From contig LJTN01000007.1 in assembly GCA_001303415.1 (NCBI GenBank), forward strand, positions 17,316 through 81,315: DNA of 64,000 nucleotides, in the 5' to 3' direction. The DNA is from Myxococcales bacterium SG8_38 (lineage in GTDB: Bacteria > Myxococcota_A > Polyangia > Polyangiales > Houyiibacteriaceae). Both the position numbers and the translations under genes were made by a program. The notes beneath the pieces were generated by a model, which had not been told where the DNA came from, ran no database searches, and saw nothing but the letters and a program-made list of their open reading frames with translations. Of this stretch, positions 37,608-41,572 are shown in pieces (the stretch's first letter is position 1; each line of letters starts with the position of its first letter).

Positions 37608-38471
37608 GTGACCGAAACGACCCGAGAGGCGGCAGTTGGTTACCAGGGCTCCGAGGGCGCTTACAGCCAGCTCGCGGCGCTCCGGCACTTTGCGCGCGCT
37701 GGCAAGCCGATTCGTTGCGTCGGCTACCGCAGCTTCCGGGCCATGCTGGAAGCGCTCAAGGCCGAAGAGATCGACTACGCGGTGCTTCCAATCGAGAACT
37801 CGATCGCCGGGTCGATCAACGAGAGTTACGACCTGCTGGCGGAGATGGGGCTCTTTTTGGTCGGCGAGGAGTTTCAACCGATCGCACACTGCTTGATCGG
37901 CGCGGCCGCGGTGCCCGTGACCGAGATTCGGCGCGTGTTTTCTCATCCGGTCGCGCTGGCTCAATGCGGAGCGTTTCTGGCGGCGTTGAAGGACTGCCAC
38001 GTAGAGGCGTTCGTCGACACGGCGATGGCCGTCGAAAAGGTCAAGCATGACGGTGATCCGACACAGGCGGCCATCGCGAGCGAGCAGGCCGCCGCGCTTC
38101 ACGGTCTGCCCATCCTGCGACGCGACATCGCAGATCATCCGGAGAACTACACGCGCATGGTCATCGTCGCGACGGACCCGGCCCACCACGAGCGCGGCGT
38201 GCCCTGCAAGACATCCCTGATCTTCTCGACCATCCACGAGCAGGGCGCCCTGGCTCGATGCATCACGATCTTCGCAGAGCGGGGTCTGAACCTCACCAAG
38301 ATCGAATCGAGGCCCAAGCCCGACACCCCGTTCGAGTACATTTTCTACGTCGACTTCGAGGGCAACGTCGATCGAGAGACGACGCAGGCCGCACTACGCG
38401 ATCTCGAGTCGGTCACGACGTTCTTGAAGGTCTTGGGCTCTTATCCGACGCGGCGGGCCGGCGTCAGCTAG
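37608..38471 (+). CDS. pheA: Prephenate dehydratase
   Basis: A 287-aa monofunctional enzyme that converts prephenate to phenylpyruvate in phenylalanine synthesis. GYQGSEGAYSQ, LPIENSIAGSI and NYTRMVIVA (the TRF-type motif, here TRM) are seen in the catalytic domain. The C-terminal ACT domain has GALARCI and KIESRP, the phenylalanine-binding motifs, so it should be feedback-inhibited. There is no chorismate mutase domain. The start is GTG 37608. It ends 8 bp inside the convergent scaffold gene. Confidence 0.92.
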   Translation: MTETTREAAVGYQGSEGAYSQLAALRHFARAGKPIRCVGYRSFRAMLEALKAEEIDYAVLPIENSIAGSINESYDLLAEMGLFLVGEEFQPIAHCLIGAAAVPVTEIRRVFSHPVALAQCGAFLAALKDCHVEAFVDTAMAVEKVKHDGDPTQAAIASEQAAALHGLPILRRDIADHPENYTRMVIVATDPAHHERGVPCKTSLIFSTIHEQGALARCITIFAERGLNLTKIESRPKPDTPFEYIFYVDFEGNVDRETTQAALRDLESVTTFLKVLGSYPTRRAGVS

Positions 38472-40785
38472 CCATCGCTTCGGCGGCGTGCGCCAGGCGA
38501 TCGGCATCGGTCGGCAGGCCGGCAGCCAGGCAGGCAGCTGCGACCATCTTCAAAGCGGCTGCTTCCGCGGACCCTTCGCGACGGGACCTGGCGACGGCTA
38601 ACGCCTGTAGCGCGTCGATCATCGCATCCCGTTCGCGCCCTTGCGCGAGATGCAAGCACGCGGATGCGAGGGAGATCCGGATTTCCGATCCTGAGCCCTG
38701 GTTGGGGCTGCTCGTGGCGGCTTCCAACGCTGCCTTTGCCGAAGCGATGTCCTGTCGTGCGACGTAGGAAAAGACGCGCAGGCAGTGGGCGCCGATCAGA
38801 TCGCCGCCTGCTGCAATCGATGCGTCGATCAGCGCATCGAACCGGGCGTGGTCCTGCTCCTTGAGCGAGCGCACCACCTCGGCGGCCGGCTTCTCGAGCT
38901 GTGCTTCGGGGATGGGCATCGTGGGCCGGTCTTCGAGCTCATCCGACGGGAAGCCCGAAGGCGCCCGGACCGCTCTGCTGATCTCGGAGGCCACCGACCG
39001 AGTGTCTCCGTCGGGTTGGTATTGCACGGCCGCAGCGGCAAGCCGCACCGCGGCGTTCGTGTATCCCCTGTCGGCCGCCAGAGAGCCCGCTTCGAGCAGG
39101 GCTTGCACCCCCCGCTCGAGGTCGCCTCCCTCACAGAGATACGCGCCCACGGTGGCCGCCATCGAGGGGCCGACCAGAGGCTCTGCGCTGTGCAACGCCT
39201 GCGCTACGAAACGGTAAACCTCGGTGCGCCGCGCCGGAGGCATCCGCTGCACCACCGCCCTTCGCAGAAGCTCCGACGCCGGCTTTCCCTGATGGGTCAG
39301 CAGCCCGTCGTTGATCAAGGCATCGAAAGCTCTCCGACGGGTATCCTCGGGAATGCCATCGAGCGCCACCGCGACGTCGATCACCTGGGCCGTGGAAGCG
39401 GGAAGGGCGGCGCACGCCACTTCGAGGAATCGCATCGAAGAGGTGTCCAAGGTGGCAAATCGCTCCTCGAGCAGAGCCCGCGGACCGACGAGCTGTCGCC
39501 GCTCCCCCTGCTCTTCGCGAAAGACGAAGCCTTTGCCGTCGTGCACTAGGTCGCCAGTGGCGATCATGGTCCGGGCAGCTTCGGTGATGCCGAGCACCGT
39601 CAGCCCGCCGGTGATGACGAGCTGCTTCGCGATTTCCTGGTCCGCGCCGGGACCCAAGATGGCGGTCGCTATCGACAGAGCCTCGTGCGTATTGAGCGAA
39701 GGCAGATCGATGGTCGCGGCGCGAGGAATGGGACGAAGCCCGGCCGGAATGCTCGATTCGGTCGTGCGAACGACCAGCAGGGCAGCCACCGTCTCGTCCG
39801 ACAAGGCCGCCCCGAGCACCTCCACGGTCGCCGGGTCGACCGCGGACATGCGATCGGCATAGAGCCAAGGCATCCCTCGCTCCCTTTGGAGCGCGCGCAG
39901 CGTGACCTTGAGCGCATGGATGGCGGCTTCGCGGGGTGGCGGGGTAGCACATGCAATGCCTTTGAGCGCCTCGGCGACGCCGGGATCACTCCTCTTCAAT
40001 CGCTTGCGGGTGGGCTCGAGGGTTCGCCAAGATTTCAAGAGCGCCAAACGGAGACCGCCGAGCGGCTCGAGACCGCCGGGTACCGCGCCGATCTCCAGAA
40101 ACGCCGGCGGCCGTAGCTCGTCTCGGAGCGCGCGGAGGCAAGACCCCGCGCCGAGCCCGAGGGGGCCCTTCAGATAGAACGCAGAGGTGCGCCCTGCGCT
40201 CGAGGCCTCTCGGATCGGTTCGAGGGCTTGCCGAAGGCCTTCGGGCGTCGGTGCTGCCTCGAGCAGGCCGACCGCCCTTCGACAGTCTTCGAGCAGTGGC
40301 CTGGTTCGGTCGATCGTTTCGCCCCGCAACGCAAACGAGCTCGTGCTCACCGTTCGCCCGAACAAGTACGTTCTCGACGCGGCCTCCCGTGATGCGACGT
40401 CGAGCACCACCTCGCCCGCCAGTGCCTGGTTGGCCAGAAGCTGCGCACGATCGATAGCGCTCCCTCCGGTGGCCGGGTGGTCGGCGTCGTCCTTGCCGCG
40501 CGTGATGTCACCCGTGGCGATCCCAAAGGCAATCGGCACCCCGCCGACCGGCACCGGCTGCGACTCGGCCTCGGCGAGCAGGCGAAGCGCCAGGTTGATC
40601 GCAGCCTTGAGGTCGTGGAGCGCGAAGTGCGCGACGACGGTGCCCGCCAGAGAGGAAAGGACCTCGCCACCGCCCCTCTTGAGCTCGCTCGTGACGTAGC
40701 GCGCCCACTGGGCAGCCGCCGCCGTCGTTTCCTCCTCTTCGAAGGCCGGGGGCAGAATCCTGTGCCAGAGGACGAAGCGTTCCAT
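38464..40785 (-). CDS. Degenerate cyclase/STAND-like/TPR scaffold
   Basis: A 773-aa cytoplasmic protein. Residues about 40-170 resemble a class III nucleotide cyclase domain (VPIAFGIATGDITRG, GGSAIDRAQLLANQALAGEVVLD) without recognisable catalytic Asp residues. Next comes an AAA16/STAND-like region whose P-loop reads GPLGLGAGS: the essential Lys is missing. The C-terminal 300 aa are TPR-like helices. The architecture is that of cyclase-ATPase-TPR regulators, but both catalytic modules look dead, so a scaffold or sensor is likely. It starts 12 bp after pspA, suggesting one transcript. I do not know a characterised homologue. Confidence 0.65.
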   Translation of the reverse strand: MERFVLWHRILPPAFEEEETTAAAAQWARYVTSELKRGGGEVLSSLAGTVVAHFALHDLKAAINLALRLLAEAESQPVPVGGVPIAFGIATGDITRGKDDADHPATGGSAIDRAQLLANQALAGEVVLDVASREAASRTYLFGRTVSTSSFALRGETIDRTRPLLEDCRRAVGLLEAAPTPEGLRQALEPIREASSAGRTSAFYLKGPLGLGAGSCLRALRDELRPPAFLEIGAVPGGLEPLGGLRLALLKSWRTLEPTRKRLKRSDPGVAEALKGIACATPPPREAAIHALKVTLRALQRERGMPWLYADRMSAVDPATVEVLGAALSDETVAALLVVRTTESSIPAGLRPIPRAATIDLPSLNTHEALSIATAILGPGADQEIAKQLVITGGLTVLGITEAARTMIATGDLVHDGKGFVFREEQGERRQLVGPRALLEERFATLDTSSMRFLEVACAALPASTAQVIDVAVALDGIPEDTRRRAFDALINDGLLTHQGKPASELLRRAVVQRMPPARRTEVYRFVAQALHSAEPLVGPSMAATVGAYLCEGGDLERGVQALLEAGSLAADRGYTNAAVRLAAAAVQYQPDGDTRSVASEISRAVRAPSGFPSDELEDRPTMPIPEAQLEKPAAEVVRSLKEQDHARFDALIDASIAAGGDLIGAHCLRVFSYVARQDIASAKAALEAATSSPNQGSGSEIRISLASACLHLAQGRERDAMIDALQALAVARSRREGSAEAAALKMVAAACLAAGLPTDADRLAHAAEAMAS

Positions 40786-40797
40786 CGTATCTCAGGG

Positions 40798-41478
40798 TCA
40801 GCTGCCGAGCTTTGCTTTGAGAGCCGCTAACTCGTCCTCGATCTGATCCCCGCCTTCCTCTGTTTCGAGAGCCCTGAAGCGCGCATCGAGCTCGGTGCGC
40901 TTGGGGTCTTCGAGCACGTGGTGCGCCTCCACCTCCGCGTCGAGCTGGTCGATTTGATCGGCCATGCGCTCCAGGTCGGAGAACGCTCCCCCACCGAGCC
41001 TGTCGCCAGCAGGGCGAGACGCATCCACGTGCTGCGCCCTTGCTTGCCGCACCTGGGCCGCCAGCGTCTTTTGCCTGGCCTTGAAATCGTCGAGCTTCTT
41101 TTCGATGCGCTCGAGCTGATCCTTCATCGCCTCTGCGGTGGTGGCCTGTTCGGCCGCTCGCTCTCGTACGTGCCGCGCTTCGTTCGAGACGCGTGCCTTG
41201 CGGCGCAGCGCCTCGCGCGCCAAGTCCTCGTCGTCGCGCTCGAGAGCGAGAACGGCCTTCCGCTCCCAATCGACCGCTTCTTGCTGGAGCTCCTTTTCTT
41301 TTTTCTCGAGGCGTTTGGCGCTCCCCATGGCCTCGACCAGCTCTTTGCGCGCGCGCTGAAGCGCCGATTTCATGTCGGCGACGGTCTGGCCGAGCATCTT
41401 GTCGGGGTCCTCGGCCTGGTCGATGAGCGCGTTGAGGTTGGACTTGATCACGCGATTGAGTCGACTGAAAATCCCCAT
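40798..41478 (-). CDS. PspA/IM30 family membrane-stress protein
   Basis: A 226-aa, nearly all coiled-coil protein opening MGIFSRLNRVIKSNLNALID, the amphipathic helix of PspA/Vipp1. These ESCRT-III-like proteins assemble on damaged inner membrane. AEDPDKMLGQTVADM is the second conserved block. ATG 41478 is chosen because AAGAGGGGAC precedes it and the product begins at the family N-terminus; the ORF track's 41655 start would run into the epimerase gene. It is followed by the pseudo-cyclase scaffold. No pspF, pspB or pspC is nearby. Confidence 0.88.
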   Translation of the reverse strand: MGIFSRLNRVIKSNLNALIDQAEDPDKMLGQTVADMKSALQRARKELVEAMGSAKRLEKKEKELQQEAVDWERKAVLALERDDEDLAREALRRKARVSNEARHVRERAAEQATTAEAMKDQLERIEKKLDDFKARQKTLAAQVRQARAQHVDASRPAGDRLGGGAFSDLERMADQIDQLDAEVEAHHVLEDPKRTELDARFRALETEEGGDQIEDELAALKAKLGS

Positions 41479-41496
41479 GTCCCCTCTTCCCAACGA

Positions 41497-41563
41497 TCCC
41501 ACGTGGGACGCTCGCTGTAAAGGTACTGAGCTTTCTCGACTTCGAGCTTCGGGGTATGATACC
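41497..41563. promoter_or_regulatory. Palindromes between pspA and the epimerase gene
   Basis: The 94-bp divergent region carries TCCCACGTGGGA (41497-41508), a perfect 12-bp palindrome 18 bp before pspA, and GGTAT-G-ATACC (41553-41563) before the epimerase. The latter overlaps TATGAT, a possible -10 box. Either could be an operator; no regulator gene is adjacent. Confidence 0.4.
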
Positions 41564-41572
41564 TGAGGGGCG

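Follow-up and report, generated by a model that had tools for sequence, protein, structure and literature searches.

A 773-aa scaffold protein is encoded directly behind pspA in the window, the whole 64,000-nucleotide stretch of the Myxococcales bacterium SG8_38 genome analyzed here. Judged by its sequences, it belongs to one order-wide family, in which a cyclase homology domain and a STAND domain that have both lost their catalytic residues are joined to a TPR-type C terminus. Because the gene pair recurs across the order, the protein probably still functions as an adaptor despite its ruined sites. The explanation we favor, with moderate confidence, is a pseudoenzyme adaptor for membrane maintenance that works usually, but not only, with PspA. 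Our literature search found no description of a pair of pspA and a pseudo-cyclase scaffold gene.

Scaffold gene, domain architecture, and family range

A classical pspA gene adjoins the scaffold gene on its upstream side, on the same strand; the 12-bp gap claimed in the sequence-only reading is borne out by the ORF coordinates and the PspA assignment by its Pfam match (Table 1). The intergenic region upstream of pspA is common to pspA and a divergent epimerase gene and carries a promoter-like element that is conserved in the window and 17 homologous loci, with retention at loci devoid of pspA (alignment of 18 upstream regions). The pspA gene and its scaffold partner have this single promoter-like element in common, a point in favor of the adaptor explanation. 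The earlier statement that pspC is absent also holds, as a genome-wide search gave no PspC match anywhere in the window's genome. PspB gave only a subthreshold match on another contig (24.6 bits versus a cutoff of 25.6; L226, G000:C10:91767-91934). At its 3' end, the scaffold gene overlaps a convergent prephenate dehydratase gene (37608..38471) by 8 bp (38464-38471).

Table 1. Features of the pspA-scaffold locus, in window coordinates
Feature	Position	Strand	Basis
Scaffold gene: pseudo-cyclase/pseudo-STAND/TPR, 773 aa, ATG start	38464..40785	-	ORF
Class III cyclase homology domain, N-terminal, residues ~1-160	40306..40785	-	AF2, Foldseek, profile versus Ma1120
STAND/AAA nucleotide-binding region and lid, residues ~190-435	39481..40218	-	Foldseek, family alignment
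Helical C terminus, TPR-like repeats, residues ~541-773	38467..39165	-	AF2, TPR profile matches
pspA, PspA1 clade, 226 aa	40798..41478	-	PF04012 E=1.4e-45 and clade placement
Intergenic region with conserved promoter-like element (CTTTACA, ~13 nt, CGTGGGATC)	41479..41572	-	18 aligned upstream regions

A Pfam search alone returned no match for the scaffold protein. The full-length AlphaFold model, built from 14 sequences, left residues 1 to 163 unfolded, which was resolved with a 59-sequence N-terminal alignment: residues 1 to 200 were then modeled with a pLDDT of 91.9 and matched class III cyclases in Foldseek (E ~2e-11), and a profile of the 59 N-terminal sequences matched the Ma1120 cyclase (E=3.4e-8). 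The full-length model matched the STAND-TPR protein 6mfv (E=9.5e-10) and MalT (8bob, 3e-7) in Foldseek. TPR profile matches fall at residues 685 to 767, residues 607 to 632 form a variable linker, and among the 32 members of set A3, 14 gave an AAA_16 match and 11 a TPR_12 match (E up to 0.1). Model and profile matches agree, confirming at the level of predicted structure the layout of cyclase homology fold, STAND fold, and TPR-type C terminus that had been proposed from the letters.

The scaffold gene is present in 27 of 38 relatives, and the family was found in 106 of the 184 genomes of the order (E<=1e-10, the weakest being partly generic STAND/TPR matches). A 379-genome sample of the phylum, searched with a 12-row alignment, contained no full-length match outside the order, just two weak matches to the STAND region. 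A gene conserved in tens of genera cannot be explained by chance. One genome (G014, CP070650) has the scaffold split into residues 1 to 148 and 254 to 773 at distant chromosome sites (L032 and L046), perhaps an assembly error.

Loss of catalytic residues across the family

The P-loop of the window protein reads LKGPLGLGAGS (residues ~205 to 214), and the missing lysine already noted in its GPLGLGAGS core is likewise missing from Walker A in all 67 aligned members. Distant members show RADPGxGGTR, keeping the outline GxxGxGG(T/S)R along with a Walker-B DD, and the outline is wholly gone in the lineages g31 and g5 and in genome G032. The cyclase site has fared no better in the alignment against Ma1120 (~90 rows). 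The transition-state Asn occurs in no row and the substrate Lys in only one, most likely that of L211, an unrelated active cyclase next to PspA1, outside the scaffold family. The transition-state Arg remains in 6 of 89 rows and is missing in the window protein. The Asp of the GD motif is mostly replaced (D in 8 rows, one of them L211, and E in 5); among the ~90 members, ~12 have an acidic residue, D or E, at this second metal position. No beta-1 metal Asp is conserved in the family; the window protein lacks it and has Gly for the GD-motif Asp, in keeping with the earlier remark that no cyclase metal Asp is evident. The cyclase catalytic residues are not retained as a complete set in any member, and new residues have become near-invariant (R9, R154, D159, and P163 in window numbering).

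Site loss is thus, by these alignments, a trait of the whole family and no one-off degradation. A single mutation or an assembly error is ruled out by the family-wide absence of the P-loop Lys, and pseudogene decay is ruled out by the intact frames of most members together with low dN/dS. We infer that the scaffold makes no cyclic nucleotide and does not switch on ATP.

Linkage with PspA1 and persistence without pspA

PspA proteins of the order form two main clades, which differ in score against the linked-PspA profile: PspA1, the clade dedicated to this linkage, exceeds 200 bits, and PspA2 stays under ~190. A scaffold member, full-size in most cases, is listed for 91 genomes, and by match coordinates 67 of them have PspA1 as the next gene upstream on that strand. 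Taking whole reading frames adds four more (G082, read directly, and G077, G104, and G135, deduced from ORF lengths), giving 71 of 91 genomes in which PspA1 adjoins the scaffold gene; the linkage seen at this one locus extends order-wide. A further 60 PspA1 regions were read. A full-size or near-full-size member lies downstream in 13 of them, ~16 have a shorter PspA1-adjacent member, and ~30 (31 genomes) have no recognizable partner, a few of these being contig ends. Most short members, of ~280 to 460 aa, are pseudo-cyclase-TPR fusions that lack the STAND core (L168, L169, L178, L180 to L184, L188, L189, L193, L195, L204, and L224); L187 consists of the cyclase part only, and the middle of L219 is a long stretch of low complexity. 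On the PspA tree, genomes with different partner states are intermixed, which suggests, as far as this phylogeny goes, that the partner was lost several times independently. In most genomes, across 7 families, the two genes stay next to each other with their order unchanged, STAND-less forms included. A partner-specific C-terminal motif of PspA1 was sought and rejected: (D/E)(D/E)ELAALK occurs whether or not a partner is present, and a similar motif is found in PspA2.

The reverse situation, a scaffold kept after the clean removal of pspA, has arisen four times or more: twice within the window's genus, where two clades show it, and once each in g5 and g31. In L020/L021 and L028/L029/L030 of the window's genus and in L042 of g5, the scaffold starts 106 to 163 bp from the divergent epimerase gene, compared to ~790 bp where pspA is present. 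Neither PspA1 nor PspA2 was found in the genomes of L020/L021, L028 to L030, and L042, some of which have a divergent PspA-like gene; g5 and g31 have no PspA match at all. Completeness is given as 100% for genomes G015, G016, and G018. L022 sits at a contig end with its locus unseen, and its genome lacks PspA. In the scaffold tree, L020 to L022 and L028 to L030 form separate clades, the pspA-bearing L019 being sister to the first (supports 0.93 to 1.0), indicating two losses of pspA in the window's genus. In L020 and L021, the ribosome-binding region of pspA and its ATG GGC ATC start are still there, before a short open frame. This remnant start opens an 18-codon frame that lies shortly before the start of the scaffold (position 1501). 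In the genus, a divergent PspA-like coiled-coil protein (L070 to L075, PF04012 E ~1e-9) is found both where pspA is present and where it is missing.

How strongly is the scaffold constrained once pspA is gone? In the window's genus, scaffold dN/dS is ~0.12 with pspA, ~0.10 without it, and ~0.11 overall, absolute values being rough at a pS of ~0.6. The dead cyclase domain has the lowest values (0.06 with pspA and 0.055 without), the first TPR part is about equally low (0.08 and 0.05), and the STAND core follows at 0.14 and 0.09. Because purifying selection persists without pspA, the scaffold must be kept for more than serving the adjacent pspA. This bears on the earlier proposal of a new PspA regulator or effector, which agrees with the order-wide linkage but finds only partial support: constraint is the same where pspA has been deleted, and PspA1 often lacks a scaffold. 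A possible but less probable explanation goes further, giving the dead scaffold an essential job unrelated to PspA and reducing the operon to inherited linkage or shared regulation. Persistence of a dN/dS of ~0.10 after pspA loss, retention of the scaffold in g5 and g31, and the many PspA1 genes standing alone all speak for it, but neutral linkage would decay, whereas adjacency and order are kept over 7 families, even in STAND-less forms. In one genus, g75 (L107, L118, L121, and L126), an mlaE-type permease gene (PF02405 E ~1e-70) takes the place of pspA immediately before the scaffold gene, with PspA1 located elsewhere; this neighbor hints, for a single genus, at a membrane-lipid setting again.

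Proposed pseudoenzyme adaptor and its counterparts

Under the adaptor explanation, the scaffold would be a pseudoenzyme descended from cyclase-STAND-TPR signaling proteins. Its dead cyclase domain, which is under the tightest constraint, may provide a dimerization or docking surface, the TPR end would bind a partner, and the STAND core would act as a spacer, deleted in several lineages. Its usual putative partner is probably the ESCRT-III-like PspA or a protein that joins PspA in protecting the membrane; since the scaffold outlives PspA, one or more additional partners must exist. The suggestion that degraded domains serve as surfaces for protein binding agrees with the strong purifying selection, which peaks in the dead cyclase domain. 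A doubtful further step would make the scaffold an ATPase-less Vps4 counterpart for a bacterial ESCRT-III, with the TPR on PspA polymers and a cyclase dimer linking or limiting them; PspA assembly would then be controlled by a dead signaling enzyme rather than by ATP hydrolysis.

It is unlikely that the scaffold is instead a ligand sensor, whose former cyclase pocket or altered P-loop would bind a nucleotide or small molecule and signal to PspA or another partner with no catalysis. An intact cyclase fold in the most constrained domain, the near-invariant R9, R154, D159, and P163, and the P-loop outline and Walker-B DD of distant members are compatible with such a pocket, but g31, g5, and G032 lack the outline altogether, several lineages dispense with the STAND core, and the substrate Lys and transition-state Asn are lost family-wide. 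An enzyme still active as a cyclase or ATPase through noncanonical residues is very improbable. In its favor, the folds are intact and the second metal position is occasionally acidic, but the P-loop Lys occurs in no member and the full cyclase residue set in none.

The adaptor reading can be set against several known systems. The mycobacterial Rv0386/Rv1358/Rv2488c group consists of cyclase-STAND/NB-ARC multidomain signaling proteins, and soluble adenylyl cyclase has a domain order comparable to theirs. The scaffold shares with cyclase-STAND/NB-ARC proteins the succession of cyclase homology domain, STAND NTPase, and helical/TPR region, but differs in that both catalytic sites are dead family-wide, in being tied to pspA, and in that no HTH domain was found in it. 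Like the STAND-TPR ATPases and MalT (6mfv and 8bob), it has a STAND fold followed by TPR; unlike them, it carries an extra pseudo-cyclase domain, and without a P-loop lysine it is not expected to switch on nucleotides.

With PSP envelope-stress systems, the locus has in common a pspA gene and a conserved neighbor, but not PspC. In E. coli, PspA binds PspF, an AAA+ protein and active sigma-54 activator (PMC6003685); the scaffold resembles it in sharing an operon with PspA and in having an AAA-type fold, but its own AAA-type core is predicted to be inactive and is dispensable. The main text of PMC11237479 presents many PspA partners, one with two AAA+ domains of which the N-terminal copy is inactive, mentions neither a cyclase-type partner nor any case from myxobacteria, and states that regulation of PspA without an associated AAA ATPase is unknown. 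PMC9239133 mentions a cyclase just as a two-hybrid tool. An order-wide dedicated PspA neighbor with dead sites is a concrete candidate for such regulation, and the natural series of full-length, STAND-deleted, and pspA-deleted forms separates the roles of pseudo-cyclase, STAND, and TPR.
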